Positions 3,244 through 64,000 of a stretch of DNA of 64,000 bases are shown one piece after another (within the stretch, counting starts at the first letter, position 1; every line of letters starts with the position of its first letter). The notes beneath the pieces were generated by a model, which worked only from the letters and a program-made list of their open reading frames with translations, did not search any database and had not been told where the DNA came from. The translations under genes were made by a program, and so were the position numbers. Source of the stretch: Acidobacteriota bacterium. Lineage in GTDB: Bacteria > Acidobacteriota > Terriglobia > Terriglobales > SCQP01. The DNA is taken from the NCBI GenBank assembly GCA_027459505.1, contig DAIDIE010000031.1, positions 1 to 64,000 of the forward strand, in the 5' to 3' direction.

Positions 3244-4445
3244 AGCTGAAGCTCTCTTTGCAAAATACCCATGTCTTTATCGCCGCGTCCGGAGAGGTTC
3301 ACAATCACGGCGCGATCGCGTGGCATGCCCGGCACGCGCCGGCAGGCTTCGGCCACCGCGTGCGACGATTCCAGCGCGGAAATAATGCCCTCGGTACGGG
3401 CCAGCAGTTGGCAGGCTTCCAGCGCCTCCTGGTCGGAGACGGCCACGTATTCGGCGCGCCCCAGGTCATGGAGAAAGGCGTGTTCGGGGCCAATTGACGG
3501 GTAATCCAGACCGGCGGATACCGAGTGGGTGGGGCAGATCTGCCCGTGCTCGTCCTGCAGGATGTAGGAAAACGTCCCCTGCAGCACACCCTGGCTGCCG
3601 CCGCGGAAACGGGCCGCGTGTTCCCCCAGCCCCGTGCCGCGGCCGCCGGCCTCCGCTCCGATCAGCGCCACCTCTTTGTCGTTGAGGAATTCGTGGAAGA
3701 GTCCAATCGCGTTGGAGCCGCCGCCCACGCAGGCAAACAGCGCCAGGGGCAAGCCCCCGTTCTCCGCTTCCATGAATTGCCGCCGCGCCTCGCGCCCAAT
3801 GCAGGCGTGAAAATCGCGCACCATGGTGGGATAAGGATGCGCCCCCAGCACCGACCCCAGCAGGTAGTAGGTGTCGGCGCAATTGGTCACCCAGTCACGC
3901 ATGGCTTCATTGATGGCGTCTTTCAAGGTACGCGTGCCGCCGGAGACGCTGCAGACCTCCGCGCCCAGCAGCCGCATGCGCGCCACGTTGAGCGACTGCC
4001 GCTCCACGTCTTCCGCTCCCATGTAGACCACGCACTCAAAGCCAAACAGCGCCGCCACCGTGGCGGTGGCTACGCCGTGCTGGCCCGCGCCGGTTTCGGC
4101 GATGATGCGCTTCTTGCCCAGCCGCTTGGCGAGCAGGATCTGGCCCAGGCAGTTGTTGATTTTGTGCGCGCCGGTGTGCAGCAGGTCTTCCCGCTTAAGG
4201 TAGACACGCGCGCCACCCAGCTTTTCTGTCAGCCGGCGGGCGAAATACAGGCGCGTGGGCCGCCCCGCGTAGTCGCGCAGCAGTTGATCGAACTCGTGTT
4301 GAAAGGCGGCGTCGTTTCTGGCCTTCTCGTAGGCCGCCGCCAGTTCCTCGTGCGGATAGACCAGCGTCTCGGGGACGTAGCGCCCGCCGTAGGGGCCGAA
4401 TCGCCCTTCCACGCTCTTGCCGATGACAGTTTGCTCTGTACTCAC
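3240..4445 (-). CDS. trpB: Tryptophan synthase beta chain
   Basis: A 401-residue PLP enzyme that condenses indole with serine. The PLP lysine K95 is in [11 protein letters not shown] and the phosphate-binding loop is [10 protein letters not shown]. The start is a GTG at 4445 (protein begins [10 protein letters not shown]); the upstream ATG is in another frame and meets a stop at once. It follows trpF after 61 bases and overlaps trpA by four bases. Length and motifs are those of the common TrpB1 type. Confidence 0.97.
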
Positions 4446-45285: not shown

Positions 45286-46335
45286 ATGTTTGGACGAAAA
45301 AACAAAGGGCGGCCGCTGCTTGGGGTCGACCTGGGCTCCAGCGCGGTTAAGGTGGTAGAGCTGAAGCGCGGCCGCGCCGGCATTAATGCCAGCGGCGTTG
45401 CCCTGGAGCTGTTGACGCCGGAAATCGTGGTGGACGGCGCCATTCTGGACAGCGCCTTCCTGGGCGACATCATCGGTCAGATGTTGCGCGAACTGCGCAC
45501 CAAAAATCGCGCCGTGGCGACCGCGGTGAGCGGCCACTCGGTGATCGTCAAGCAGATCTCCATGCCGGCTATGACCGAGGAGGAGTTGCAGGCGGCAATG
45601 GCGACGGAAGCGGCGCAGCACATTCCTTTTGAATTGTCGGACGTCAACCTGGACCATCAGGTGCTCAACCTGCACGAAAACGGCATGATGGACGTGCTGC
45701 TGGTGGCGGTGAAAAAAGACAAAGTGACCAACTACACCAGCGCCCTGAGCATGGCGGGCATGCAGCCGGTTGTAATCGATCACGACCCTTTCGCCATGCA
45801 GAACTGCTACGAGTACAACTACCAACCCGATCCAGAGGTGACGGTGGGGCTGTTGAACGTGGGCGCCAGCGTCACCAACATCAACGTGGTGAAGGGAACC
45901 GTGCCGCTGTTTACACGCGACATCAGTGTGGGCGGCAACCAGTACACCGACGCTCTGCAGAAGGAACTGAATATGAGCTTCGACGACGCCGAAACGGCCA
46001 AGTTGGGCAGCAACCCCAATGTCAACGAGGAGCAACGCAAGCCGGTTCTGGAGTCGGTTTCGGAAATCATTCTGCTGGAAATCCAGAAGACATTTGACTT
46101 CTTCCGCGCCAGCGCCGGGGGAGAACAGGTCGAGCGCCTCTACTTGTGCGGTGGCTCGGCGCAGATTCCCGGGTTGACGGCCATGTTATCGCAGGAATTC
46201 GCGGTGCCGGTGGAATTGCTGGATCCGTTCCGCCGAATCAGTGTCGCTGACAGCGCGATCGATCTGGTGCGGGAACAAGGGCCGCGGTTGGCGGTGGCGG
46301 TGGGTTTGGCTCTGAGGAGTTTTGAGGATTTATGA
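45286..46335 (+). CDS. pilM: Type IV pilus assembly protein PilM
   Basis: A 349-residue actin-like ATPase that forms the cytoplasmic ring of the pilus alignment complex and binds the PilN N-terminus. Typical parts are LLGVDLGSSAVKVVELKRGR at the start, SVIVKQISMPAMTEEELQAA, INVVKGTVPLFTRDISVGGN, and LYLCGGSAQIPGLTAMLSQE near residue 285. Overlaps pilN by four bases (46332-46335). Confidence 0.95.
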   Translation: MFGRKNKGRPLLGVDLGSSAVKVVELKRGRAGINASGVALELLTPEIVVDGAILDSAFLGDIIGQMLRELRTKNRAVATAVSGHSVIVKQISMPAMTEEELQAAMATEAAQHIPFELSDVNLDHQVLNLHENGMMDVLLVAVKKDKVTNYTSALSMAGMQPVVIDHDPFAMQNCYEYNYQPDPEVTVGLLNVGASVTNINVVKGTVPLFTRDISVGGNQYTDALQKELNMSFDDAETAKLGSNPNVNEEQRKPVLESVSEIILLEIQKTFDFFRASAGGEQVERLYLCGGSAQIPGLTAMLSQEFAVPVELLDPFRRISVADSAIDLVREQGPRLAVAVGLALRSFEDL

Positions 46336-46952
46336 TTCGCGTCAACCTCATCGAAGGCGCGCAGAAATCTGGCCGCGGGGGGAGCAAGATCACCGCGGAC
46401 ATGCTGGCGCCCGCCACTGGACAAAGCCCGCAGACTTGGGGGGTGCTGATTTTGCTTGGCGCCCTGGTTGTGCTGGGACTGCACTACTTCTGGTTGCAGC
46501 ATCAAGCCAGCGATATTGCCGCCGGCATGGCAAAGGCGCAAAGTGAAGCTTCCCGGCTACAGGCCGTGCGGCACGATTTCGAGCTGAACACCCAGAAAAA
46601 AAGTACTTTGGAAGCGCGGATCAAAGTCATCAACGATTTGCGGCAGGGACAGTTCACCCAAATTCAGTTACTGCGCAATTTGGACGAGTCGGTGTTGGGA
46701 GCCGGTCCAGTCTGGCTGAGCGATCTGAAAGAGAGTGAGGACACGCTGGAGATAAACGGCTATGCGCAAAGCATCGCCGCGGTGGCCCAATTCATGAAGA
46801 CCATGCAGGCCACCGGCTATTTCAGCGCGGTGCACTTCAAGAAGGCAACCCAGAACAACTCTTCAAAAGCGCCTGGGGTCCCCCGCTTCCTTTTCAATCT
46901 CAAAGCGACCATGGGTTCGAGCGGGGCGCGAGAGCAAGGAAAGGTTTCCTGA
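46332..46952 (+). CDS. pilN: Type IV pilus assembly protein PilN
   Basis: A 206-residue inner-membrane protein. The cytoplasmic tip MIRVNLIEG matches the conserved INLLP-like PilM-binding motif; one membrane helix follows at about 36-54 (WGVLILLGALVVLGLHYFWL), then a coiled coil (residues 60-105) and a periplasmic ferredoxin-like domain (PVWLSDLKESEDTLEINGYA). The N-terminal linker (residues 10-33) is longer than usual. PilN dimerises with PilO. Confidence 0.92.
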   Translation: MIRVNLIEGAQKSGRGGSKITADMLAPATGQSPQTWGVLILLGALVVLGLHYFWLQHQASDIAAGMAKAQSEASRLQAVRHDFELNTQKKSTLEARIKVINDLRQGQFTQIQLLRNLDESVLGAGPVWLSDLKESEDTLEINGYAQSIAAVAQFMKTMQATGYFSAVHFKKATQNNSSKAPGVPRFLFNLKATMGSSGAREQGKVS

Positions 46953-46959
46953 GGTTCCT

Positions 46960-47586
46960 ATGGCTTCTCTCAATGATTTGAGCCCCAAGGCACAGATCCT
47001 GGTCTTTTTGGGACTGGCGATCGGCTTGGTGATTGCGGGCGAAATGCTGTACCTGAGCAGCTACTCCGACCAAAACAGTCAGCAGCGGCTGCAGTTGAAA
47101 AAGCTCCAGGTACAAAACGATATGTTGCGCCCCTACCTGCGCAAGACGGAACTTCTCAAACAGAGCAACGCGACGCTGCAGCGTCAGTTGGACACCCTGC
47201 TCACCATGGTTCCCAAGGACCCGCAAGTGGAGGCGTTCATTGGCGAATTGAGAACACAAGCGCAGGTCTCCAGTATTCATGTGCGCACGCTGGAAGCCCA
47301 GCCGAAAGTGCAGCACAAGTTGTATGTGGCCTATCCATACCGGGCGCAAATCGATGGCTCGTTTGCCGATATGGCGCAGTTCTTCAACGCTTTGGCGCAT
47401 CAGGAACGCATTGTTCAGGTTTCCGATCTGCAGATGAGCCATGCGAAGCCGGGCGGCGGCGGGGGGTTCCAGTACGCTCCCAACACCACCGTCACGGCGA
47501 ATTGCGTCTTGACTACATTCGCGAGCCAGGAGCGTGCAACGCCGGCCAAAGGCAAGCCCGGCCCGGCGGGACGGAGGCCGGCATGA
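46960..47586 (+). CDS. pilO: Type IV pilus assembly protein PilO
   Basis: A 208-residue partner of PilN with the same plan: membrane helix at about 10-30 (QILVFLGLAIGLVIAGEMLY), a coiled coil (QQRLQLKKLQVQNDMLRPYL and beyond) and a periplasmic domain (VEAFIGELRTQAQVSSIHVR, YRAQIDGSFADMAQFFNALA). The C-terminus has an extra Pro/Gly/Lys-rich tail. Its stop overlaps the start of pilP (ATGA). Confidence 0.93.
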   Translation: MASLNDLSPKAQILVFLGLAIGLVIAGEMLYLSSYSDQNSQQRLQLKKLQVQNDMLRPYLRKTELLKQSNATLQRQLDTLLTMVPKDPQVEAFIGELRTQAQVSSIHVRTLEAQPKVQHKLYVAYPYRAQIDGSFADMAQFFNALAHQERIVQVSDLQMSHAKPGGGGGFQYAPNTTVTANCVLTTFASQERATPAKGKPGPAGRRPA

Positions 47587-48005
47587 GGTATTCCAAGCTC
47601 TTGGCGAGCGTGTTCGCCACCAGTCTCCTTGTTATGGCGCAGCAGCCTAAGCGCCATCCGGAAGCAGCGCGTTGGCGCAGCGCGGGACGCGACCCGTTTG
47701 CGCCCATTCAGCCACCCAAGAGCACACTTCCCAGCGGGCGGGCTGGCTTGCTGTTATCGGACCTGCACATAATCGGCGTGGCGGTGGGGGGACCCCTGGG
47801 CCCTGTCGCGCTCGTGTCAGATAGCGCTGCCGGAATCGGGGCTTCGCAAATTTATTTCCTGCGGCCAGGCGACCGCATTTACGACGCGCTGATTTTGCGC
47901 ATTAGCCCGCAGGGCGTGTGGTGTCTGCCCACGTCCAATCGCAATAGTAAAGCGCCCAGGGCGCATAGCCCAGTGCTGCTGAAGGTCAGTGGAGCGGCGC
48001 AGTGA
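47583..48005 (+). CDS. pilP: PilP-like pilus lipoprotein
   Basis: A 140-residue exported protein at the pilP position. Signal peptide LLASVFATSLLVMAQ without a clear lipobox cysteine; then GRDPFAPI, the usual PilP 'DPF' motif, and LLLSDLHIIGVAVGG, leading to a small beta domain (IYFLRPGDRIYDALILRISP). PilP links PilN/PilO to the PilQ secretin. It is shorter than proteobacterial PilP and may not be lipidated. The call rests largely on operon position and the DPF motif. Confidence 0.75.
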   Translation: MRYSKLLASVFATSLLVMAQQPKRHPEAARWRSAGRDPFAPIQPPKSTLPSGRAGLLLSDLHIIGVAVGGPLGPVALVSDSAAGIGASQIYFLRPGDRIYDALILRISPQGVWCLPTSNRNSKAPRAHSPVLLKVSGAAQ

Positions 48006-51000: not shown

Positions 51001-51113
51001 AGCAGGTGCCATTGCTCGGCAGTCTACCGGTGGTGGGTTACCTGTTTAAGCACACGACAGTAACGGACAACAGCAACGAGCTGCTCTTCTTTATCACCCC
51101 GAGGATTATCTAA
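48042..51113 (+). CDS. pilQ: Type IV pilus secretin PilQ
   Basis: A 1023-residue outer-membrane secretin. After a signal sequence (MLLCAGLAGLTPSLVAQ) come two AMIN domains, about 50-150 and 225-325 (IGRLRVERNDRETAIFVGAE), which bind peptidoglycan. A Pro/Val/Ala-rich linker at about 345-560 holds a 95-residue tandem duplication (49230-49514 and from 49515). The STN/N0 domain is near 605-690 (ITLNLKNADINDFFRLINQI), then a secretin N1 domain and the beta-barrel core (RVLSRPKIITQNNTKASVEQ, PVVLQLTVTPQITAENTVFL, ending LLGSLPVVGYLFKHTTVTDN). Its stop codon overlaps the next gene's start (TAATG). The linker is unusually long. Confidence 0.95.
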   Translation: MNISSAKARLLKERPRGLRKWRTSPWPFRMLLCAGLAGLTPSLVAQPAPSTLRMIIFRGVQAAPSAESTLLRVRASAGFTHTEYRPSPNLLLVDLHNVVLDENRQPVVLNQGPVSSYRIFDFSGANHEHVLRLEIALRGPARPEVSMQGGDLLVRVVAGTAGPTAAPVIRQVNTPLVARLDPPRVEPQRSPLPPALPQAHFLSRPAARPQARAAVAPSRIGRLRVERNDRETAIFVGAEPSLGPVHAYVLHQPERLVMDFAATRDDLDRQRWNVNSPTVLDVRVAQFTARTARVVVDLRKPVTAKIEQSSNGVWAEFPVNALGAEGAPRVRVAASVWSAREQAAQPLLAEVRMPERPSTAVRAGNSLVNETLPPTQLSPRRAKAVAQPLRPAARTTVLPTAHKIQASVARVNAVARPAVMAHAAVRPVAQPVHIPVAQPVVARVLPPANRSQHPPVRAVVAVRPVAQAQVRTPVVRSMPVRKQPAEPVRETMLSSENKMQASVAAANAVARQVAMAHAAGRPVAQPVHLPVSQPVVAGITTSRRANPPVFNLSGNAPSTRNLTRGFGADSHEPQIESGSAVTPRGVPPPSLSQPVQGLAPGTGAPVEYTGERITLNLKNADINDFFRLINQISGLNIVVDPNVKGTVTMMLQDVPWDQALDLVLRNNDLGRELEGNVVRIATLSTLQREAKQQAALAAARESAVPLTTVIRTLSYAQATALVPTLKKFVGARGDVTPDKRTNSLIIQTTPATVPLVDSLIAKLDEKTPQVEVEARVVAASRNFTRELGVQLGIGAGNSSSAVSGLPPQGTSTNASNTALAGITNPAYPLAAGGGLPYNVNLGASSPTSGISFINASNTYRIDAVLSAAEARGLGRVLSRPKIITQNNTKASVEQGVQIPIQTTINNTISIQFFPVVLQLTVTPQITAENTVFLQVDVKNQQIDTGIPAIQGVPAIDTQEATTNVLVSNGGTVVIGGVMVNNTANSVQQVPLLGSLPVVGYLFKHTTVTDNSNELLFFITPRII
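49230..49665 (+). repeat. 285-bp direct duplication in the pilQ linker
   Basis: The segment from 49230 recurs from 49515. In both copies the text runs through QASVA, NAVAR, MAHAA, RPVAQPVH and QPVVA. The second copy breaks off near 49665 where conserved secretin sequence approaches. The period of 95 codons keeps the frame. Confidence 0.75.
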
Positions 51114-54100
51114 TGAAGAAGGGCGCCAGCGCGGCCGATATGGGTCTTTATATGAAGCGTTTCACCGTCATCCCAAACATTCGTAAGTCCACCAGTGCGG
51201 CACTGGCAGCGCTGTTTCTGCTCGGCTTCACGCTCAGCGGATGCGGTGGCGGTGGGACCTCGCTGTTCACCAATCCCAATACCGGTACGTCCAGCTCGGG
51301 CAGTGGTTCCGGCTCGGGCAGTGGAAGTGGGAGTGGCGGCAGCACCAGCACCACGCCAGTCGTCACTACGATTTCGCCGCTCACCGCGGTGGCCGGCAGC
51401 GGCGCCTTGAACCTGACCATCTCCGGCACGGGGATCAACACGAGCACCGCGACCGTAACTTTTAACGGAACGCCCCTTTCAATTGGCGCAGTGAGTACGA
51501 CGTCGATACAAGCGACGGTGCCCGCTAGTTTAACCGCGGTGGGCGGTACATTCCCAATCATCGTTGCCAACGGCAGCAACGCAGCCGCGGCTGTAAACTT
51601 CACCGTGACCAATCCGGTGCCCACGATCAGCGGGTTATCACCGGCGGTTGCGCAGGCGGGAAGCGCTCCTCTGACCCTCACAGTGACCGGTTCGGGATTC
51701 AATTCTTCCACGACGATCAGTTTCAACGGTACCGATCGAACCGCCAGCATGGCGCTGGTGAGTACAACGCAGATCACCATCCCGTTAAGCAGCGCCGATC
51801 TGGCGGTGGCGGGCACCTATTCGGTACTCGTGGCCAATCCCGGCCCCGGAGGCGGGACGGCGAGTCTGCAGAACCTGGTCGTTACCAATCCGACGCCGGT
51901 GATCACGGGCTTTGGTCCCCCCAGTATGAGCGTGAGCACGTCGGGGGCGACCCTGACCATTGATGGGGCGGGATTCGTTCCCGGCTCATTGGCAACATTC
52001 AACGGCGCCTCTCGCCCAGTCACCTTTGTGAGCACCAATCAGATCAACGTGGCGTTGAGTGGCACCGATTTGAGCATCGCCCAAACGGTGCCTGTACAGG
52101 TGACAAATGCGGGTCCTGGCGGAGGGCAGGCGCAATCGACCTATACAATCACCGCCGCCCCGGGTGCGAGCAGCGGCACCAATAATCCCATTCCGGTGAT
52201 TACCGCCCTCAGTCCGGCGAGCCTGGTGGCCGGCTCTCCCGCGCAAAGCCTGACCATTTCAGGAACGGGTTTTGGTCCGAATACGACTTTGACGTATAAC
52301 GGGACGCAGCGTCCCGTAACGCTTCAGGCCAATGGTTCATTGACCATGCCGCTGAGCAATGCGGATCTAGCCTCCGGAGGCGCATTCGCGATTACGGTAG
52401 CCAACCCGTCCCCAGGAGGCGGTACTTCCAACGTCGTCAACTTTGATGTCACGAATCCGGTGCCGTTGATCAGCAGCTTTGGTCCGCCGACGATTACCGC
52501 CGGCACTGCCGCACAAAGCCTCACGATTAATGGTAGCGGCTTCGTCGCCAACTCACTGGCCACATTCAATGGCGCCAGCCGGCCGGTTACGTTCGTGAGC
52601 CCGAGCATTATCACGGTGGCATTGCAGGCGACGGATCTGGCGCTCCCGGGCACTGTGCCGGTAACGGTCAGCAACATCGCTCCAGGCGGAGGCACGGCCA
52701 CGGCGAGTTTCACGATTTCCGCCTCGCAGACGACCACGACGGGCAACAGCAACAATCCCATTCCCGTAATCACCAGTCTGTCTCCATCCAGTGTGGTGGC
52801 GGGAGCGTCAGCGCAGACGCTTTCGATCACGGGGACCGGCTTTGGGACTTATTCCACGGTTACACTCAACGGGACCACGCTAACGGCTACGCTGCAACCC
52901 GTGGCGAGCGGTGCGACCACGGAGACTTTGACAGTTACTTTGACTGCCGCCGACCTCGCCACAGCTGGCACTGACGCTTTTACGGTCAGTAATCCCACGC
53001 CGGGCGGCGGCACCAGTAACGTCTTCAATTTCACGATCAACAATCCTGTTCCCGCCATCACCAACTTGTCTCCAAATTCCGCTGCGGTCGGGAGCGGCGC
53101 GCAGACGGTCACGATCAATGGCACCGGTTTCGTGTCCAGTTCGGCGGTGAGTTTCAATGGCGCCACACGCAGTTCCACCTTCATCAACTCCACCCAGATG
53201 ACGGTCAATCTGCTCAGCGCCGACTTCGTCACTGGCGGCGTCTATTCGCTATCGGTGTACAACGCTGGGCCCGGCGGAGGCACTGGGCAGGCCAACTTCA
53301 CGGTGAGCACCAGCACCACCAGCGGCAATCCGGTTCCGGCAATTGTCAGCCTGAACCCGAGCACCGTCGCCACCGGGTCTTCGGCGCAAACACTGGTGAT
53401 CACGGGCACGGGATTCGTGCCCAGTGCTGCTGTCACTATCAATGGCGCCGCGCACACCTCCACCTATGTCAGCGCAACGGAAATTGACGTGCCTCTGAGC
53501 GTTGCCGATCAGGCGACTGCTGGCACGTATCTGGTACAGGTCAGCAATCCAACTCCCGGTGGAGGTGGATCAAACGACGCCACTCTCACCGTCAGCAATC
53601 CCGCACCCACGATTACTTCCCTGGGACCCAGCTCCATCACCACGGGAAGCGCGGCGCAGTCGATTACGATCAACGGCAGTGGCTTCCTGCCGACCACGAC
53701 AGTTACCTATGGCGGGTCGCTCCGGGTAGTCACTTATGTCAACTCCTCACAAATCAGCGTGGCATTGCTGAGCAGCGACTTCACCACCGCGGGCAACTAC
53801 ACGGTCAACGCCTTCAATGGCGCGCCAGGAGGCGGAAGCGCACAGGCGGTGTTTAGCGTCTCCAGCGCCAGCGGCAATCCGGTTCCGTCCATTACCAGCC
53901 TGACGCCGGCCTCGGCCACCGCGGGCGACGCGCCGGAGACTCTGACCATTACCGGCTCCAACTTTCTCAATACTTCGACGGTGACGTTCAATGGCGTGGC
54001 GCACGCGGCCAGTCTGCTGCCCTCTGGCAATCTGGCGATCGCGCTCTCGGCGTCTGACTTGGCCAACGCTGGGAGCATGGCGGTTGTGGTAACCAACCCC

Positions 54101-57100
54101 ACGCCAGCCGGTGGCCCCTCCAATGTAGTCAACTTCGTGGTCAACAATCCCGCGCCTGTGTTGAGCAGCGTTTCGCCCAGCTCCACCAGCCCGGGCAGCG
54201 CCGCGATGACGGTGACCCTGAATGGCTCGGGGTTCAATACCACCACGCAGGCGAGCTTCAACGGCTCGGTCCGAACTACGACGTTTGTAAACACCTCCCA
54301 GCTGACGATGGCGCTCACCACGGGTGACCTGGCTACGGCGGGCAGCTACACAATTAGCGTCCTGAACGCGGCACCCGGTGGAGGCACTTCATCGCAGACT
54401 TTCACGGTCACGGGTAACAGCAGCAATGGCGTTCCGGCGATTACCACCTTGTCGCCAGCGACTCTGGTGGTAGGCGCCAATCCCACCACGCTGACGGTGA
54501 CGGGTTCCAATTTTCAGTCCACGTCGGTGGTCAACGTCAACGGAAGCCCACGCACTACGACTCTGACTTCCAGCAGCACCCTTACGATTTCGTTAACCGC
54601 GGCCGATCTGAGCACGGCGACCGAACTGGCGATCACAGTGACCAATCCGGCGCCGGGGGGTGGTACCTCAGCGGTCGTTGATCTGCCAATTACCGATCCC
54701 ACTCCAGTCATCTCCTCACTCGGTCCGGGAGCGGTGGCCGCGGGCAGCGGAGCGCAGACGCTCACGATCAATGGCTCGAATTTCGTCGCCGGATCCCAAG
54801 TAACGTTTAACGGAACGGCGCGTACCGCAACGTATGTCAATGGCGGTCAATTGACGATCGCTCTCACGGCCAACGATGTGGTCGCGGCCGGAACCTATGC
54901 GGTGACCGTATACAACGGACCTCCAGGCGGAGGTGTGTCCAATACCGCCAACTTCATTGTGAGCGGGAGCGGTCCGGTCATTTCGAGTCTGTCGCCGGCC
55001 AGCACGCTGGTGAGCAGTGCGGCCTCGATGACGCTCACCGTGAACGGCAGCAACTTCATTGTGCCTAGCGGCAGCAGTACGGGCTCGGTGATCAGCATCA
55101 ACGGCATCAACCGTACCACCACAGTAACCTCGACCACGCAGGCCAGCGTTACTCTGGGCGCCAGTGATCTGGACACGGCGGCGAACAATGTAGTGAACGT
55201 CAGCAATCCGGCCACCAGCACGACGGCAGCCGCGGTCTCCAATGCGGTGGTCTTCCAGGTCGCCAATCCGGTACCAGGCATCACCAGCCTGTCGCCGAGC
55301 ACGGTCGCGACCGGGTCTTCAGCGCAAACGGTAGTGATCACCGGAACCGGCTTTGTCTCCGGCTCGACGGTGAGCATCAACGGGTCATCGCATACCGCGA
55401 CCTACGTGAGCTCGACGGAAATTGACATACCGCTCAGCACAGCCGACCAGGCGACGGCGGGAACCTATCTGGTTCAGGTAACGAACCCAACCCCGGGCGG
55501 GGGTAGTTCCACCAGCGCGACGCTGACCGTCGGCAATCCCGTGCCCGCCATTACGTCACTGGGCCCGAGCGGCATCACGACCGGCAGCGCGGGTCAGTCG
55601 GTCACCATCAATGGTAGTGGGTTTGTGCCATCGACCACTGTGACTTATGGTGGTTCGCTGCGCACGGTTACCTACGTTAACTCGTCGCAAATCACCGTGG
55701 CGCTGCTGAGCAGCGACTTTGCCACCGCCGGAAATTACACGGTTTCCGTGTTCAACGGAACACCGGGAGGTGGGACGGCGCAAGCGGTCTTCACCGTCTC
55801 CAGCGCCACCGGCAACCCGGTTCCGAGTATTACCAGCCTCACCCCGGCTTCAGCAACGGCGGGCGACGCGCCCGAGTCGTTGACAATCACGGGCAGCAGC
55901 TTCCTGAACACCTCGACGGTCACTTATAACGGTGTGGCGCACGCCGCCAGCTTGCTGCCGTCTGGCAACCTGGAGATTGCCTTATCGGCCAGCGATCTAG
56001 CTACGGCGGGGACAATGGCGGTGGTGGTGACGAATCCTTCACCCGCGGGCGGCCCGTCCAATGTGGTCAATTTCACGGTGAATAATCCGGCGCCGGTGCT
56101 GAGCAGCATTTCACCCAATTCGGCGAGTCCGGGGAGCGCAGCGGAAACGATCACCCTCAACGGAACGGGCTTCAATACCGCCACCCAGGCGAGCTTCAAC
56201 GGCTCGGTGCGTACCACCACCTTTGTGAATAGCACCCAGTTGACGATGTCCGTGACGGCGACGGATTTGGCGACGGCGGGGACCTACGCGGTGAGCGTGT
56301 TCAACGCCACCCCCGGTGGCGGCACGGCTTCGCAGAACTTTACAGTGACCAGCACCAGCACCAACGGGGTGCCGACCATCAGCTCGCTGTCACCGTCAAC
56401 CATCACGGTCGGCTCCAGTCCGGCCACGTTGATCGTGAGCGGAACCAACTTCCTCGCCACATCGGTGGTGAACGTCAACGGTACTGCGCGCACGACGACC
56501 CTCAGCGGGGCCACGCTGACCATACCGCTGACCGCCGCCGATCTCGCGACGGCTGGCAATTTAGCGATTACGGTGACCAATCCGGCGCCGGGCGGTGGGA
56601 CCTCGACCGAAGTCGACCTCCCAGTGACCAATCCGACGCCCGCCATTTCGTCGCTGGCGCCTGGCGCCGTGGCGGCCGGAAGTGGCGCCCAGACGCTCAC
56701 CATCAACGGCTCCAATTTCGTCGCTGGTTCCCAGGTGAGCTTCAATGGGACCGCGCGTACGACGACCCTTGTCAACAGCGGCCAGCTCACAATCGCCTTG
56801 ACCGCGAACGACGTGGTTTCCACGGGAGCCTATTCGGTCACCGTGTTCAACGCCGCCCCGGGCGGTGGCGTGTCGAATACCGCTAATTTCATAGTCAGCG
56901 GCAGCGGGCCCGTCATCAGCAGCTTGTCGCCCAGTACCGAAGTCGTGAACACGGCGGCGCCGGTAACGCTAACCGTCAATGGCAGCAATTTCGTCGTCCC
57001 CAGCGGCAGCAGCGCCGGCTCGGTGATTAGCATCAACGGCGTCAACCGCACTACGACGGTGACCTCGGCGACCCAGGCCAGTATCACCCTGGGAGCGGCG

Positions 57101-60100
57101 GATCTGGACACGGCTGCCAGCAACGTCATCAGTATCAGCAATCCCGCCACCAGTACGACGCCAGCGGCGACATCGAACGCGGTGGTGTTCGAAGTGAGCA
57201 ACCCGGTTCCGGCCATCACAACATTGGCGCCTAGCACCGTGACTACGGGCTCATCGGCCCAAACGCTGGTGATTACAGGTACCGGCTTCCTGACTAGTTC
57301 GACCGTGACCGTCAACGGCGCCGCTCACAGCTCAACCTATATCAGCACGACGGAAATCGACGTGCCGCTCAGCGACGCCGATCAGGCAACTGCGGGAACC
57401 TACCTTGTCCAGGTGACCAACCCCACGCCGGGAGGAGGCGGGTCTGGAGACGCCACGCTCACGGTCAGCAATCCGGCGCCCACCATCAGCTCGCTCGGTC
57501 CGAGCAGCGTCACGACGGGGAGCTCGGGCGAATCCGTTACCATCACCGGCAGCGGCTTTCTGCCGGGCACGACAGTCACCTATGGTGGTTCTCTGCGGAC
57601 GGTGACCTACGTAAACACATCGCAGATTAGTGTCGCCCTGTTAAGTTCCGACTTCACGACGGCGGGCAATTACACCATTGAAGCTTTCAATGGAACGCCG
57701 GGCGGGGGGACCGCGCAGGCGGTCTTCAGCGTTTCCAGCGCCAGCAGCAATTCGGTGCCGGTCATCACCAGTTTGACCCCGGCATCGGCCACCGCGGGCG
57801 ACGCACCCGAGTCGCTAAGCATCGCGGGCACGAATTTCCTGGATACCTCCACGGTCACCTATAACGGGGTGGCGCACGCGGCCAGCCTCCTGCCCTCCGG
57901 CAACCTGGAAATCTCGCTCAGCGCCAGTGACCTGGCCACCGCCGGCAACATGGCGGTTGTGGTCACCAACCCTGCGCCGGGCGGTGGTCCGTCAAATGTT
58001 GAAAACTTTGTGGTCAACAATCCCGCCCCGGTGCTGAGCAGCATTTCGCCAAACTCGGCCAGTCCGGGCAGCGCGGGGGAGACGATCACGCTCAACGGCT
58101 CGGGCTTCAACAGCGCGACCCAGGCCAGCTTTAACGGTTCGGTCCGCACGACCACGTTTGTCAACAGCTCGCAACTGACGATGGCGGTGTCTTCCTCCGA
58201 TCTCGCCTCGGCGGGAACGTATCCGGTGAGCGTTCTGAACGCCACGCCGGGTGGTGGGACGGCCTCGCAGAACTTTACGGTAACGAGCACCAGCAGCAAC
58301 GGTGTTCCCACCATCGTGACCCTGTCGCCCAGCACCATCACGGTGAACTCCTCGGCGACCACGCTGACGATTACGGGAACCAATTTCCTCGCCACCTCCT
58401 CGGTGGCGGTCAACGGCGTAAGCCGCACGACAACCTACAACTCCAGCACTTCTCTGGCGATCACGCTCACTGCGGCGGACCTTTCCAGTGCCAGTGATCT
58501 GGCGGTTACGGTTACCAATCCGTCTCCGGGCGGAGGCACCTCGAACGTGGTCAACTTGCCGGTCACCAACCCAGTCCCGGCGATCAGCTCGCTTGGGCCG
58601 GGCGCAGTGGCGGCGGGCAGTGGCGCACAGACACTGACGATCAACGGCTCGAATTTCGTGACCGGTTCGCAGGTGACCTTCAACGGTTCGGCACGCACCG
58701 CAACCTATCTGAGCTCGACGCAGCTCACGATTCCACTGACCGCGACGGATGTTGCCTCGGCCGGAACCTATGGCGTCATTGTCACCAATGCATCCCCTGG
58801 TGGCGGCGTTTCGAATACGGAAAACTTTATCGTCAGCAGTGGCGGCCCAATCATCACCAGCCTGTCGCCCAGCAGCGATCTGCTGGACACGGCGGCGCCG
58901 GTCACCCTGACCGTGAATGGCAGCGGATTTGTGGTTCCCAGCGGCGGCAGCGCTGGCTCGGTAGTCAGCTTCAATGGACTGGCGCGCACGACTACCGTCG
59001 CGTCCACGACCGTGGCGACGATCAGCCTGGGCGCTACCGATCTGGACACCGCGGGCAATTACGTCGTAACTGTGAGCAACCCGGCCACCAGCACCTCGCC
59101 GGCGGCGACGTCCAACTCCACGGTATTTGAAATTACCAACCCCGTACCGGCCATTACGTCGTTATCACCGGCTACGGTGTCGACTGGCGCTTCAGCGCAG
59201 ACCATGGTCATCGCGGGAACCGGATTCCTGTCCAGCTCGACGGTGACCATCAACGGCACGGCTCATAGCGCCAATTATGTAAGTTCGACGGAAATCGACG
59301 TGCCGCTGAGCAGCGCCGATCAAGCTACAGCAGGGAGCTACCTGGTGCAGGTCACGAACCCGACGCCCGGTGGCGGCGGTTCCAACCTGGAAACGTTGAG
59401 TGTCAACAATCCGGCGCCTACGGTCTCCAGCTGGGGACCGACCAGTGTGCTGAGCGGCAGTTCGGCCCAGACGTTGACCATTACCGGAACCGGCTTTATG
59501 ACCGGAACCACGGTGACTTACGCGGGCTCCGCGCGGGTGGTAACCTACGTGAATTCGACACAGATCGAAGTAGCTCTGTTGTCGACTGACTTCAGCGCGA
59601 CGGGCAGCTATACGGTGGTGGTGGCTAACGCCTCGCCGGGTGGCGGATCGACCTCGTTCAACTTTACCGTGTCCAGTTCGTCGGGCAACTCCGTGCCCAC
59701 GATCACCTCGTTGACTCCGGCGAGCACAACAGTAGGAGCGGCACCGTTCACGCTGGACATCAGCGGCACGAGCTTCCTGAGCACATCGACGGTGACCTAT
59801 AACGGAGTCGCGCACAGCGCCAGCCTGCTGCCCTCAGGGCAACTGGCGATTCCGCTGACCGCTTCGGACCTGGCGACGGCGGGCTACTACCCGGTCATCG
59901 TCACTAATCCGGCGCCTGGTGGCGGTACCTCCAACATAGTTAATCTTGAGGTGGACAACCCGGTGCCAACCGTGAGCAGCCTTTCGCCCAATTCCGCGGC
60001 GCCGGGCAGCGCGGCCATCACGGTAACCGTTAATGGCACGAACTTTAACAGCGCCTCGGTAGCCAGCTTTGGCGGCGCAGTGCGGACGACCACCTATATC

Positions 60101-63100
60101 AGCTCAACCCAGCTCGAAGTGGCGGTAACGGCCAGCGATCTTGCGACCGCTGGTACCTACGCCGTGTCGGTGACCAATCCGTCACCGGGCGGCGGGAGCG
60201 CCTCGCAGAACTTCACCGTGACCGCCACCAGCAGCAATGGGGTACCAACGATCACGGCGGTGTCGCCAGTCAGCGGCACCCTCACTGCGGGCGCGGCCGG
60301 TCAATCCTTGATTATCAGCGGCACCAATTTCCTCTCCACCTCCGTGGTGGATTGGAACGGGACAGCGCAGACGACGACGTATAACAGTGCCACCTCGCTG
60401 TCGATTACGATGACGGCGGCGGAACTGGCCACGGCGGCGAACAACGCTATTACCGTGGTGAACCCGTCACCCGGGGGCGGTACCTCGAATGTGTGGACAT
60501 TCGCGGTGGACAATCCCGCGCCGACCATTAGCAGCTTGTCCCCCGCGGCGGTCGCGACGGGCAGTGCGGCGCAGACCCTGACGATCACCGGCACGAACTT
60601 TGTGAGCGGCTCGCAGGTGACCTTCAATGGCTCCGCGCGGGCGGCAACCCTTATCAGCTCGACCCAACTGACAATTGCGCTGACAGCGAGCGACATGAGT
60701 TCGGCGGGTTCCTACGCCGTGACGGTGGCCAATGCCTCTCCGGGTGGCGGCACCTCCGGCGCGGTGGATTTCGTGGTCAGCAGCACGACCCCGATCATCA
60801 GCAGCATTGCGCCCAGCAGCGCGGCGGTGAATGCGACCACGCCGTTGACTCTGACGATCACCGGGCAAAACTTCATTGTTCCCGCAGGCAGCACGCCGGG
60901 AACGGTCATCAGTTTCAACGGCACTTCGCGCACGACCACCGTGGCGTCGACCACTTCGGCGACGATCACGTTGGGTTCGGCGGATCTGCAAACCGCCGGC
61001 ACCTACAACGTTGTGGCGACCAACCCGCCGACCTCGACTTTGCCTGGAGCGAGCTCCAACACGGTGAGCTTCAGCGTGAACAATCCGGTTCCGGCGATCA
61101 CGTCGTTGAACCCGAGCAGCGTCACGGTGGGCTCGTCCGGCCAGACCCTGATCGTCAACGACACGGCAGGCAACTTCCTGTCGAGCTCGGTCATTAACTT
61201 CAACGGTACGGCGCTGACCACCACCTACGTCAGCTCGACCGAAGTGACGGCGATGTTGTCGACCGCCGACCTGGCCACGACGGGAACCTATCCGGTGACG
61301 GTCACCAATCCGGCGCCGGGTGGCGGCACCTCGTCAGTTGTGGACTTCTATGTGGAGAATCCGGCGCCGACGTTGAGCACGGTTTCGCCCAGCAGCATCA
61401 CGGAAGGCTCGTCGGCGACCACCATCACGGTCTCTGGTGGCAGCTTCGAAGCCAGCAGCGTGGTTTACTTTAACGGCGCCGCGCTGTCGACCAGCTACGT
61501 CAATTCAACGCAGTTGACGGCGACGGTTCCCAGTTCCGATCTCACCACCGCGGGTCTGTTCCCGATTACTGTGGAGAACCCGAGCCCGGGTGGAGGAACA
61601 TCCAGCTCGGTGAATCTGACCGTGGGCAATCCGGTGCCGACGCTGTCCTCAATGACGCCGGTGAATGTGGCCAAGTCGCCGAGCACGCCAGTGAACGTCA
61701 CCCTTACGGGGACGAACTTCATGGCGGGCACGACGGTACTTTTCAACGGAACGGCGTTGTCGAGTTCCTTGTACACGCTCAACAGCTCAACGCAGATCAC
61801 CCTGTCGCTGGACAACACCGTTCTGACGACGGCGGGAAGCTTCCCAGTCGAGGTGGACAACCCCGGACCTTACGGCGGAGGGACGTCGAACGCCCTGTAC
61901 ATGATCGTGGGTGGGCCAAGCTCCAGCGCCAGTCCCATCGCGATTAATGCGGAAACGGTTAACGGCCAGACGGTGGATGTGGGCTATATCCCGTTGCCCA
62001 ACACCGATCAGGTCGCAGTAGTGCAGCTCGACAACAGTGATCTGCCCTACCAAGCCGACAACGGGTTTGTGACTACCGGCCTGGAGCAGACCAGCACTAT
62101 TTCGCATATCATGGGCGTGAACCCCGTGATTACCACGCTAACGTTCATTGGCTTCGTCCCCAACTACACCGTGGCCGACATTACCGACGGGATCGTTCTG
62201 GTGGGTAGCTACACCTCCAGTACGGTGCATGAAATTCGAATCTCCGATCACACTGCCGATCCGGGGGGGGCGGCTTATCCCTACACCTTTACGGTCAGCG
62301 GGTCCAGCACGTTCAGCGATGCGACCTGCAGTGGCATTTGCGGTATAGCGATCGACGGATCGGGAATTTCAGGCCGTACCGAGGCGATCGCCGCGACGCC
62401 AACCGGTTACATCGAATTCACGCCATCAGCGCCGGGCACGAACTCGACGTTGACCAGTGCTGCCGCCGCGCCCTCGGAGGAGTTCGGCTACGATTCGACG
62501 ACCTCCAATTGGATCATCACCAGCCCGTGGTATACCGGCAGCAGCGGAGGATTGCAGTACATCAACATGCTGAAGTCGTCCACGACGCTTGTGACGACGG
62601 CAAACTACGTGGGAACCAAGCCCGATTCCGGTGTCATTGACGACACGACCGCGTTGTCGGTGATCCCGGATGAGGGTACGGGTACGAACTACCTGCTGAA
62701 TCTGGCGGGGATTACGTCCATTTCATCGCCGACCACTCTACCCTCGGCCAGCTTTACCATCCCGCAGGGAACGTACTGCGCCAACCGGGCGGATTGGACC
62801 ATGACGTCGATCCACTTCAATACTCATATCCTGATGTCGGGTCAGGAGTTGACGCCGTGCATTGCGGTTACGCAGCTATCGACGTCGAATCCTGGGTCGG
62901 GGGTGAATCCAACCGCGCCAAGCGGAACATCGGCGATCCACTTTGGCCAACTCTCGGCGCCGCAGCCCAGCTATACCACCGGAGCACCGTACGGTACATT
63001 GAGCACCACCGGACTCGATCCGGACGGAAATGCCTTCAAGAACAGCGGCGATCCGCATCTGTTGGCAACGTTCACCAGTGTGCTGAACGGTGACGCCATG

Positions 63101-63598
63101 GGTATTGTGGTTGAAGACTCCGGGAGCTGGATTGCCGAAGTCAACCTGAGTACTCTGATGAACTTCAGTAGTGGGGTCAGCGCCCTATCGTCACAGGGCG
63201 AGATCAGCCCCTCGGACATGGCCTCGAATACGGCCTACCTGCGCATCTTCAACCCGGCGCCGGATCTGTTGAGCGCCAGCCCCACGACCATCACGCATGG
63301 GGCGAGTAACACAACAGTAACGTTAACGGGCGTAAAAGACACCACTGGCAGTTACGGTCATGGATTTGAGACCACCTCGACGGTCACGATCCAATACCCG
63401 ACTTCCACGGGTGGGGCCACCACCGCCACGACCACCCTGACTTCGTCGTCTCCGTACTTCTCATTTGTCAGCGCAACCGACATTCAGGTCACGCTGACAG
63501 CAGCCGAGTTGCAGTACACCGGTACGATAACGATAACGGTAACCAATCCGTCGCCTGGCGGAGGAACCAGCAGCTCCGCGACGATCACGATCAACTAA
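51113..63598 (+). CDS. Giant IPT/TIG-repeat lipoprotein, last gene of the pil operon
   Basis: A 4161-residue predicted surface lipoprotein. A signal peptide ends in a lipobox, FLLGFTLSGCGGGG near residue 45, followed by a Ser/Gly linker (SSSGSGSGSGSG). Then come about 39 immunoglobulin-like IPT/TIG domains of roughly 90 residues, each with a pattern such as AQTLTINGSGF, FNG.R, DLATAGTY and NP.PGGGTS. Domains 1-7 are residues 80-739; domains 8-35 (740-3324) form four copies of a seven-domain block; 36-38 follow; residues 3601-4047 are a non-repeating, Cys-containing region (SDATCSGICGIAIDGSG); a last IPT-like domain closes the protein. Start ATG 51113 overlaps the pilQ stop and has GAGG upstream; ATG 51152 is a second option. 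Role as adhesin or pilus-linked surface fibre is inferred. Confidence 0.85.
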   Translation: MKKGASAADMGLYMKRFTVIPNIRKSTSAALAALFLLGFTLSGCGGGGTSLFTNPNTGTSSSGSGSGSGSGSGSGGSTSTTPVVTTISPLTAVAGSGALNLTISGTGINTSTATVTFNGTPLSIGAVSTTSIQATVPASLTAVGGTFPIIVANGSNAAAAVNFTVTNPVPTISGLSPAVAQAGSAPLTLTVTGSGFNSSTTISFNGTDRTASMALVSTTQITIPLSSADLAVAGTYSVLVANPGPGGGTASLQNLVVTNPTPVITGFGPPSMSVSTSGATLTIDGAGFVPGSLATFNGASRPVTFVSTNQINVALSGTDLSIAQTVPVQVTNAGPGGGQAQSTYTITAAPGASSGTNNPIPVITALSPASLVAGSPAQSLTISGTGFGPNTTLTYNGTQRPVTLQANGSLTMPLSNADLASGGAFAITVANPSPGGGTSNVVNFDVTNPVPLISSFGPPTITAGTAAQSLTINGSGFVANSLATFNGASRPVTFVSPSIITVALQATDLALPGTVPVTVSNIAPGGGTATASFTISASQTTTTGNSNNPIPVITSLSPSSVVAGASAQTLSITGTGFGTYSTVTLNGTTLTATLQPVASGATTETLTVTLTAADLATAGTDAFTVSNPTPGGGTSNVFNFTINNPVPAITNLSPNSAAVGSGAQTVTINGTGFVSSSAVSFNGATRSSTFINSTQMTVNLLSADFVTGGVYSLSVYNAGPGGGTGQANFTVSTSTTSGNPVPAIVSLNPSTVATGSSAQTLVITGTGFVPSAAVTINGAAHTSTYVSATEIDVPLSVADQATAGTYLVQVSNPTPGGGGSNDATLTVSNPAPTITSLGPSSITTGSAAQSITINGSGFLPTTTVTYGGSLRVVTYVNSSQISVALLSSDFTTAGNYTVNAFNGAPGGGSAQAVFSVSSASGNPVPSITSLTPASATAGDAPETLTITGSNFLNTSTVTFNGVAHAASLLPSGNLAIALSASDLANAGSMAVVVTNPTPAGGPSNVVNFVVNNPAPVLSSVSPSSTSPGSAAMTVTLNGSGFNTTTQASFNGSVRTTTFVNTSQLTMALTTGDLATAGSYTISVLNAAPGGGTSSQTFTVTGNSSNGVPAITTLSPATLVVGANPTTLTVTGSNFQSTSVVNVNGSPRTTTLTSSSTLTISLTAADLSTATELAITVTNPAPGGGTSAVVDLPITDPTPVISSLGPGAVAAGSGAQTLTINGSNFVAGSQVTFNGTARTATYVNGGQLTIALTANDVVAAGTYAVTVYNGPPGGGVSNTANFIVSGSGPVISSLSPASTLVSSAASMTLTVNGSNFIVPSGSSTGSVISINGINRTTTVTSTTQASVTLGASDLDTAANNVVNVSNPATSTTAAAVSNAVVFQVANPVPGITSLSPSTVATGSSAQTVVITGTGFVSGSTVSINGSSHTATYVSSTEIDIPLSTADQATAGTYLVQVTNPTPGGGSSTSATLTVGNPVPAITSLGPSGITTGSAGQSVTINGSGFVPSTTVTYGGSLRTVTYVNSSQITVALLSSDFATAGNYTVSVFNGTPGGGTAQAVFTVSSATGNPVPSITSLTPASATAGDAPESLTITGSSFLNTSTVTYNGVAHAASLLPSGNLEIALSASDLATAGTMAVVVTNPSPAGGPSNVVNFTVNNPAPVLSSISPNSASPGSAAETITLNGTGFNTATQASFNGSVRTTTFVNSTQLTMSVTATDLATAGTYAVSVFNATPGGGTASQNFTVTSTSTNGVPTISSLSPSTITVGSSPATLIVSGTNFLATSVVNVNGTARTTTLSGATLTIPLTAADLATAGNLAITVTNPAPGGGTSTEVDLPVTNPTPAISSLAPGAVAAGSGAQTLTINGSNFVAGSQVSFNGTARTTTLVNSGQLTIALTANDVVSTGAYSVTVFNAAPGGGVSNTANFIVSGSGPVISSLSPSTEVVNTAAPVTLTVNGSNFVVPSGSSAGSVISINGVNRTTTVTSATQASITLGAADLDTAASNVISISNPATSTTPAATSNAVVFEVSNPVPAITTLAPSTVTTGSSAQTLVITGTGFLTSSTVTVNGAAHSSTYISTTEIDVPLSDADQATAGTYLVQVTNPTPGGGGSGDATLTVSNPAPTISSLGPSSVTTGSSGESVTITGSGFLPGTTVTYGGSLRTVTYVNTSQISVALLSSDFTTAGNYTIEAFNGTPGGGTAQAVFSVSSASSNSVPVITSLTPASATAGDAPESLSIAGTNFLDTSTVTYNGVAHAASLLPSGNLEISLSASDLATAGNMAVVVTNPAPGGGPSNVENFVVNNPAPVLSSISPNSASPGSAGETITLNGSGFNSATQASFNGSVRTTTFVNSSQLTMAVSSSDLASAGTYPVSVLNATPGGGTASQNFTVTSTSSNGVPTIVTLSPSTITVNSSATTLTITGTNFLATSSVAVNGVSRTTTYNSSTSLAITLTAADLSSASDLAVTVTNPSPGGGTSNVVNLPVTNPVPAISSLGPGAVAAGSGAQTLTINGSNFVTGSQVTFNGSARTATYLSSTQLTIPLTATDVASAGTYGVIVTNASPGGGVSNTENFIVSSGGPIITSLSPSSDLLDTAAPVTLTVNGSGFVVPSGGSAGSVVSFNGLARTTTVASTTVATISLGATDLDTAGNYVVTVSNPATSTSPAATSNSTVFEITNPVPAITSLSPATVSTGASAQTMVIAGTGFLSSSTVTINGTAHSANYVSSTEIDVPLSSADQATAGSYLVQVTNPTPGGGGSNLETLSVNNPAPTVSSWGPTSVLSGSSAQTLTITGTGFMTGTTVTYAGSARVVTYVNSTQIEVALLSTDFSATGSYTVVVANASPGGGSTSFNFTVSSSSGNSVPTITSLTPASTTVGAAPFTLDISGTSFLSTSTVTYNGVAHSASLLPSGQLAIPLTASDLATAGYYPVIVTNPAPGGGTSNIVNLEVDNPVPTVSSLSPNSAAPGSAAITVTVNGTNFNSASVASFGGAVRTTTYISSTQLEVAVTASDLATAGTYAVSVTNPSPGGGSASQNFTVTATSSNGVPTITAVSPVSGTLTAGAAGQSLIISGTNFLSTSVVDWNGTAQTTTYNSATSLSITMTAAELATAANNAITVVNPSPGGGTSNVWTFAVDNPAPTISSLSPAAVATGSAAQTLTITGTNFVSGSQVTFNGSARAATLISSTQLTIALTASDMSSAGSYAVTVANASPGGGTSGAVDFVVSSTTPIISSIAPSSAAVNATTPLTLTITGQNFIVPAGSTPGTVISFNGTSRTTTVASTTSATITLGSADLQTAGTYNVVATNPPTSTLPGASSNTVSFSVNNPVPAITSLNPSSVTVGSSGQTLIVNDTAGNFLSSSVINFNGTALTTTYVSSTEVTAMLSTADLATTGTYPVTVTNPAPGGGTSSVVDFYVENPAPTLSTVSPSSITEGSSATTITVSGGSFEASSVVYFNGAALSTSYVNSTQLTATVPSSDLTTAGLFPITVENPSPGGGTSSSVNLTVGNPVPTLSSMTPVNVAKSPSTPVNVTLTGTNFMAGTTVLFNGTALSSSLYTLNSSTQITLSLDNTVLTTAGSFPVEVDNPGPYGGGTSNALYMIVGGPSSSASPIAINAETVNGQTVDVGYIPLPNTDQVAVVQLDNSDLPYQADNGFVTTGLEQTSTISHIMGVNPVITTLTFIGFVPNYTVADITDGIVLVGSYTSSTVHEIRISDHTADPGGAAYPYTFTVSGSSTFSDATCSGICGIAIDGSGISGRTEAIAATPTGYIEFTPSAPGTNSTLTSAAAAPSEEFGYDSTTSNWIITSPWYTGSSGGLQYINMLKSSTTLVTTANYVGTKPDSGVIDDTTALSVIPDEGTGTNYLLNLAGITSISSPTTLPSASFTIPQGTYCANRADWTMTSIHFNTHILMSGQELTPCIAVTQLSTSNPGSGVNPTAPSGTSAIHFGQLSAPQPSYTTGAPYGTLSTTGLDPDGNAFKNSGDPHLLATFTSVLNGDAMGIVVEDSGSWIAEVNLSTLMNFSSGVSALSSQGEISPSDMASNTAYLRIFNPAPDLLSASPTTITHGASNTTVTLTGVKDTTGSYGHGFETTSTVTIQYPTSTGGATTATTTLTSSSPYFSFVSATDIQVTLTAAELQYTGTITITVTNPSPGGGTSSSATITIN
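53330..61084 (+). repeat. Higher-order repeat: 4 x seven IPT/TIG domains
   Basis: Blocks start at 53330, 55268, 57203 and 59141 and end at 61084 (1938, 1935, 1938 and 1944 bp). In each block the seven domain types come in the same order, recognised by: A STEIDVPLS.ADQ, B VTYGGSLR.VTYVNSSQI, C PASATAGDAPE, D TQASFNGSVRTTTFVN, E SVVNVNG..RTTT, F GPGAVAAGSGAQTLTINGSN, and G IVPSGSS.GSVISING, which lacks the PGGG turn and has NPATST instead. The fourth block is the most diverged. Only the domain order and period were checked by reading; identities were not computed. Confidence 0.9.
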
Positions 63599-63620
63599 GG
63601 CAGCAAGGCATTTGCCTAAG

Positions 63621-63665
63621 CCGGGCCTCCGCGGGAATTCTGACCGCGGAGGCCCGGCCTTTTTG
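63621..63665 (+). terminator. Rho-independent terminator after the giant gene
   Basis: A perfect 14-bp stem CCGGGCCTCCGCGG / CCGCGGAGGCCCGG (63621-63634 and 63644-63657), nine-base loop, then CCTTTTT. It lies 23 bases after the stop of the giant gene and should end the pil operon transcript. Confidence 0.93.
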
Positions 63666-63719
63666 AGAGCTTACGCAGGCCGCCGGCGCCCGTAAAACAG
63701 AAACGATTAAAATGGAACT

Positions 63720-64000
63720 ATGAACTACCCCCGCAGGTTGCGGCAGTTGCGGCAGCGATTAAGGCGCTCGAATGCCGTCGCGCTGCTGGTCACACATTTG
63801 CCCAACGTGCGCTACCTGTGCGGTTTCAGCGGTTCGGCGGGGGTACTGCTGGTCACGCCGGAGCGCAGTCTGCTGTTCACCGACAATCGCTATCGCGAGC
63901 AGTCGGCTCAGGAGGTGCGCGAGGCGGAAGTGGTGATTCCGGAAACTGGCGGGGTGCGGCCCCTGCTGCTGGCTGAAATGGCCAGGCTCAAAGGCGTGAT
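63720..64000 (+). CDS. Xaa-Pro aminopeptidase (N-terminal part, runs off the window)
   Basis: The first 93 codons of a creatinase/prolidase-family peptidase: LVTHLPNVRYLCGFSGSAGV, LLVTPERSLLFTDNRYREQS. This N-terminal domain is typical of Xaa-Pro aminopeptidases and dipeptidases (PepP/PepQ). The metal-binding catalytic domain lies beyond the window. ATG 63720 is preceded by a TAAAAT box only six bases away, so the message may be leaderless; it is separated from the giant gene by a terminator. Confidence 0.85.
   Translation, partial: MNYPRRLRQLRQRLRRSNAVALLVTHLPNVRYLCGFSGSAGVLLVTPERSLLFTDNRYREQSAQEVREAEVVIPETGGVRPLLLAEMARLKGV

Follow-up and report, generated by a model that had tools for sequence, protein, structure and literature searches.

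A giant TIG-domain lipoprotein with four old copies of a seven-domain block, encoded behind pilQ in an Acidobacteriota genome

IPT/TIG domains are known from adhesins and extracellular fibres. The locus described here encodes a single protein of 4161 residues in which such domains are strung together by the dozen and recur in a fixed order, and it raises the question how an array of this size was built and what it may be for. The analysis was centred on the window, i.e. the whole stretch of 64,000 nucleotides available for inspection (Acidobacteriota bacterium; GTDB lineage Bacteria; Acidobacteriota; Terriglobia; Terriglobales; SCQP01; assembly GCA_027459505.1, contig DAIDIE010000031.1, positions 1-64,000, forward strand). 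The features of the locus are listed in Table 1.

Table 1. Positions of the giant TIG gene, its parts and its neighbours in the window
Feature	Position	Strand	Evidence or remark
pilM	45286..46335	+	Pfam PilM_2, E 3.1e-75
pilN	46332..46952	+	Pfam PilN, E 2e-14
pilO	46960..47586	+	Pfam PilO, E 5e-19
pilP-like gene (putative)	47583..48005	+	position and RDPF...GDRI pattern only
pilQ secretin, 1023 aa	48042..51113	+	TIGR02515, 374.3 bits, cut-off 284.35
giant TIG lipoprotein gene	51113..63598	+	ATG-started ORF, 4161 aa
signal peptide with lipobox LSGC (Cys44)	51113..51244	+	sequence pattern
Gly/Ser-rich linker	51245..51349	+	sequence
TIG domains 1-7, outside blocks	51350..53305	+	own-repeat HMM, domain comparison, tree
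block 1, domains 8-14, types a-g	53330..55267	+	DNA repeats and own-repeat HMM
block 2, domains 15-21	55268..57202	+	80% aa identity to block 1
block 3, domains 22-28	57203..59140	+	76% aa identity to block 1
block 4, domains 29-35, most divergent	59141..61084	+	62-66% aa identity to other blocks
TIG domains 36-38	61085..61909	+	own-repeat HMM
YVTN-type beta-propeller-like region (probable), aa ~3600-4047	61910..63253	+	homology to TIG-propeller lipoproteins
39th (last) TIG domain	63254..63592	+	own-repeat HMM, 61.4 bits
candidate intrinsic terminator	63620..63664	+	15-bp stem, 9-nt loop, then C and five T
pepP start (aminopeptidase P homolog)	63720..64000, to 64784 on contig	+	usual pilQ neighbour

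The preliminary description of this DNA had proposed an open reading frame with a lipobox, about 39 IPT/TIG domains and four consecutive copies of a seven-domain block with an underlying periodicity of 646 residues, and all of these elements were recovered. The LSGC motif is located at aa 41-44 behind a hydrophobic stretch, and with signal peptide, lipobox and Cys present the product has, as judged by pattern only, the hallmarks of a bacterial lipoprotein. The NCBIfam model NF058597 (CoaZ_rpt_PGGG, an IPT/TIG-type repeat) matched 39 stretches of the protein with 2743.6 bits (cut-off 30), and the Pfam TIG model PF01833, whose use had been recommended, scored 602.5 bits (cut-off 20.9), separating 25 stretches when used alone. 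An HMM of the protein's own repeats placed 38 domains back to back at aa 80-3599 and the 39th at aa 4048-4160; the ~450 aa that separate domains 38 and 39 are not TIG. A Pfam scan of the whole protein returned TIG families only and no C-terminal RTX calcium repeats. The protein is rich in Thr, Ser, Ala and Gly, and Lys plus Arg make up less than 1% of it.

From TIG domain 8 to TIG domain 35 a single ordered seven-domain block occurs four times in succession. The block starts predicted earlier proved to be exact to the base, the DNA repeats are spaced by 1935-1944 bp, and comparison of the protein with itself gave identity peaks at offsets of 1291, 646 and 645 aa. Domains at the same position in different blocks are more alike (mean identity 71%, 0.71) than domains of different types within blocks (44%, 0.44). 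Mean domain identity was 0.63 at a lag of seven domains and 0.58 at a lag of 14, most other lags giving ~0.43, and none of 5000 shuffles of the domain order matched the lag-7 value. In the domain tree each of the seven block types (a-g) was monophyletic. With the shuffling result and the monophyletic types, the duplication of a 1.94-kb block as a unit, as had been postulated, is well supported. The tree also hints at a deeper level with two clades: types b, d and f join domains 3, 5 and 7 (support 0.94), and types a, c and e join domains 4, 6, 36 and 39 in a second, weakly supported clade. Outside the blocks, domains 3-4 and 5-6 seem to stem from an ancient duplication of a domain pair. Going by the two clades, the array may have started as an alternating pair of domain types, grown to three pairs plus type g, i.e. 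the block, and then lengthened by block copying.

How old are the copies? Between blocks, identity is 62-80% in protein and 61-73% in DNA, and agreement at fourfold-degenerate sites (0.33-0.43) is close to the 0.32-0.35 expected from composition. A comparison of the pilQ gene of this genome with that of its nearest relative shows a similar degree of saturation (fourfold agreement 0.42, with 0.37 expected). The longest identical run between any two blocks is 23 nt. The block copies are thus old, and the saturated synonymous sites rule out a recent duplication. In spite of this saturation the amino acid identity of like domains across blocks is still 53-91%, with dN/dS of about 0.1-0.2, which argues for purifying selection on the domain types. 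An assembly error, which the preliminary description had allowed for as the source of the blocks, is excluded for all practical purposes: between copies 27-39% of bases differ, fourfold sites agree at a near-random level, identical runs do not exceed 23 nt, and a single open frame spans 12.5 kb within a contig of 207 kb. Because the blocks have diverged in DNA and share such short runs, slippage of repeat number by homologous recombination between them is unlikely at present. Codon scrambling selected against recombination was also considered and rejected, since the DNA identity between blocks was slightly higher, not lower, than in a simulation with random codon choice. The idea that the length of the protein is set by block number as a varying trait is not supported: the copies are much diverged, and the searches turned up no other genome with the blocks in which their number could be compared.

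When the protein sequence of one block was used as query, matches were obtained in 219 of the 299 genomes of the class, all of them to generic TIG proteins with at most 58% identity over short parts or ~42% over most of the block. A profile search of the family genomes detected the giant gene in one genome only, the others containing just a short paralog (see below), and in the closest relative as judged by pilQ there were two NF058597 matches in the entire genome. A clear block period was absent from the five other multi-TIG proteins with at least eight domains, although only two of these, with 17 and 18 domains, have the length at which a seven-domain period would show up well. Two members of the family contain very long open frames of 5080 residues (L139:1216-16455, genome G001) and 4679 residues (L140:3085-17121, genome G006), with one clear TIG domain each. 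Literature searches on TIG proteins of Acidobacteria yielded nothing relevant.

It has been noted for large multidomain proteins that neighbouring domains are usually less than 50% identical, which is thought to limit misfolding, and that Periscope Proteins break this rule, varying their length by means of near-identical repeats (PMC8201768). In the giant protein adjacent TIG domains are on average 42% identical (maximum 0.53), and domains of like type sit seven places apart. For comparison, neighbour identity was determined in eight further multi-TIG proteins from the class, each with at least six domains: in six of them it exceeded 50% on average (means 0.53-0.82), and in the remaining two, which have no blocks, it was 0.33 and 0.47. 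Taking into account the low neighbour identity of the giant, the spacing of its like domains and the higher values in most of the other proteins, it is plausible that block-wise growth serves to make a rod longer while like domains are kept apart. Blocks are not the sole solution, since the two latter proteins keep their neighbours dissimilar without them. In three multi-TIG proteins (L178:5736-13661 in G273, L179:3705-8942 in G127 and L175:6328-18000 in G144) neighbours are on average 71-82%, and up to 95%, identical, which makes these proteins candidates for length variation of the Periscope type in Acidobacteriota.

Besides the low neighbour identity, the following features went beyond the preliminary description: the propeller-like region at aa ~3600-4047, a paralog found throughout the family, and the overlap with pilQ at the end of a pil operon. 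The region between TIG domains 38 and 39 shares homology with the C-terminal portion of a lipoprotein of 620-680 aa, in which a lipobox is followed by an N-terminal region, one TIG domain and a propeller. The homology first emerged when only the window sequence was used as query, with a match of E 3.0e-8 in another genome, G004; a profile search then matched the short paralog in the genome studied here (contig C45). A wider profile had one strong match in each of the 14 family genomes, and in this genome the giant as a second. A search of relatives with the C-terminal 561 aa of the giant gave a single homologous propeller protein, all other matches being to TIG. The short lipoproteins (L182:7136-9172 on contig C45 of this genome, and L184-L193) have no dedicated family model in Pfam or NCBIfam. 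The giant shares with them the order lipobox, TIG, propeller, including the homology of its C-terminal TIG and propeller parts, and differs in having 38 TIG domains before the propeller-like region instead of one. At least eight of ten short members carry CNxYYxPPP behind the lipobox, where the giant has CGGGGTSLF. Identity of the giant to every short member is 26-29%, and the short members among themselves are 34-96% identical; the giant is therefore a deep or fast-evolving paralog of the TIG-propeller lipoprotein and not a recent copy. The propeller model TIGR03866 matched five of 11 members of this family, and a profile reached the YVTN propeller 1l0q with an E value of 0.0018. The predicted structure of the region was of low confidence (pLDDT 54); Foldseek matches of this low-confidence model of the TIG-propeller end were mostly propellers, Leptospira Lp49 being first. 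Together these data make a beta-propeller likely for aa 3600-4047.

The giant gene is the last one of an operon that consists of pilM, pilN, pilO, a PilP-like gene and pilQ; its ATG and the pilQ stop overlap by one base (TAATG). The PilP-like product had no match among Pfam and NCBIfam profiles, and the ATG of its gene falls inside a listed ORF (47502-48005). Behind the giant gene the candidate terminator is backed by the RNA fold of positions 63596-63690 (z -3.41). The consensus terminator scan missed this hairpin because of its loop length; in general, the promoter and terminator consensus scan gave no more matches than were seen in shuffled sequences. To see how unusual the arrangement is, 80 pilQ loci of Terriglobia-type genomes were compared, with flanks of up to 10 kb that are cut short where a contig ends early. 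A pepP homolog was present within 4 kb downstream of pilQ in 71 of the 80 loci, in 67 of these starting within 400 nt of pilQ, and with HMM filters off a TIG domain was found near pilQ, within these flanks, in none. Because pepP usually adjoins pilQ and TIG domains do not, the giant gene is an extra gene at a conserved pilQ-pepP junction. In four loci (L085, L095, L130 and L131) the pepP homolog starts 1.1-2.8 kb behind pilQ; some other lineages thus also have additional sequence between the two genes. The secretin itself is longer than the pilQ products of relatives (about 640-870 aa), and its Pro/Ala-rich linker (49248-49670, aa ~403-545) contains a segment of ~45 aa in two copies, KIQASVARVNAVARP... 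(aa 403) and KMQASVAAANAVARQ... (aa 498). Elsewhere the genome encodes a PilB as well as two ATPases of the PilT family, all scoring above cut-off. The giant protein itself has no PF05567 (PilY1) match; a PF05567 search of the genome gave no match either, and the control searches were equally silent. The TIG domains belong to a known family; what sets the giant apart is its super-repeat of seven domains together with its propeller-like head and its location directly after pilQ.

The structure prediction of one block that had been suggested was carried out with AlphaFold2, which returned seven beta-sandwiches in series with a mean pLDDT of 87.5 and a relative domain arrangement that is uncertain (pTM 0.38). 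Foldseek matches of this model included plexin IPT domains and the extender of the MpAFP adhesin (4p99). Four MpAFP repeats of 104 aa span about 19 nm (PMC4083281). Scaling this rise to about 92 aa per unit and 38 domains, the TIG array would measure ~150 nm if extended, or ~4 nm per domain.

In the reading that we favour, the protein would be an outer-membrane lipoprotein in which the lipid anchor is followed by a Gly/Ser hinge, 38 TIG domains, a YVTN-type propeller head and the last TIG domain. It would be expressed together with the secretin operon of the type IV pilus and form an elongated rod projecting from the cell, the head serving as the binding part of a cell-surface adhesin or stalk. 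Block copying would lengthen the rod and leave adjacent domains dissimilar, with less misfolding between neighbours. To this reading as a whole, a surface adhesin or binding stalk grown by blocks, we assign roughly even chances. A long surface stalk, which had been proposed at the outset, is still the likely role of the protein, its exposure and length being what we infer here. For the seven-domain order a neutral origin is a serious though less probable alternative: the order would have no function of its own and be a relic of a few unequal crossing-overs in a TIG array, retained solely because the copies then became too diverged to recombine. Saturated synonymous sites and short shared runs are compatible with this, the nested history of pair, block and four copies is the trace that repeated duplication would leave, and no positional binding sites are evident; the purifying selection on the domain types speaks for function, but it would be true of any structural domain.

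The place of the gene allows yet another interpretation, namely that the protein is a part of the type IV pilus, coupled to PilQ and either exported through the secretin or encircling it, lying along the pilus, or presenting an adhesive propeller nearby. The final position in the operon, the one-base overlap and the PilB and PilT-family ATPases would fit, and the ~28 nm block period could match a periodic partner, as the super-repeats of titin match the thick filament. However, the giant gene is absent from all 80 other pilQ loci, the two short paralogs examined (contig C45 of this genome and contig C16 of G004) lie outside pil operons, in contrast to the giant, and the operon position may bring about co-expression only, so we regard a pilus part as unlikely. 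The stronger version, a titin-like ruler that is coupled to the secretin and has its period matched to a repeating surface partner (the pilus fibre, for instance, or a surface lattice), with each domain type a fixed binding position and the number of blocks setting the reach of a pilus-associated propeller, seems very improbable. A scaffold that lies in the periplasm or parallel to the membrane would also agree with the lipobox, which puts the anchor in the outer membrane and not necessarily on its outer face. An extended rod of ~150 nm would, however, equal several periplasm widths, and both the composition and the fold similarity to adhesin and receptor ectodomains suit a surface role, which makes a scaffold rather improbable. 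A surface stalk or adhesin stays our preferred reading, and the place behind pilQ suggests that this giant surface lipoprotein is linked to the type IV pilus.

Several known systems resemble the giant in part. Other NF058597/PF01833 repeat proteins of Terriglobia share its repeat domain; those examined have neither 39 domains nor seven-domain blocks nor a propeller-like head. Lp49 of Leptospira (3bws) and BT_3476 of Bacteroides (3tc9) were high-ranking fold matches to the TIG-propeller end; they are short and less than 10% identical to it, and as the query model was of low confidence they serve as a lead only. The extender of the ice-binding RTX adhesin MpAFP is likewise an extended Ig-like rod, but it consists of about 120 copies that are identical at the DNA level (PMC4083281), unlike the diverged repeats of the giant, and MpAFP is type I secreted and not a lipoprotein, whereas the giant has a lipobox. 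With Periscope Proteins (SasG, Rib, Sgo_0707 and CdrA) the giant has in common a rod of tandem domains that would project a functional domain (PMC8201768). The repeats of these proteins are almost the same in sequence and come in varying numbers; those of the giant are diverged, with neighbours 42% identical and blocks 61-73% identical in DNA, and it therefore lacks the near-identical tandem repeats of high DNA identity that define the class. Many bacterial stalk proteins lengthen by such near-identical repeats, at the cost of a misfolding risk and genetic instability. The giant represents the other solution, known from titin, in which a block of dissimilar domains is copied whole and then long kept. 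The D-zone of the titin A-band, with six copies of a seven-domain super-repeat (PMC10665226), is by architecture the closest parallel: in both proteins an ordered block of seven Ig-like domains was copied in tandem, a likeness of architecture only and not of homology. Titin differs in being eukaryotic and intracellular, in combining Ig and FnIII domains and in being bound to a periodic filament. The giant lends itself as a natural test case for the idea that growth by blocks serves to keep adjacent domains dissimilar.
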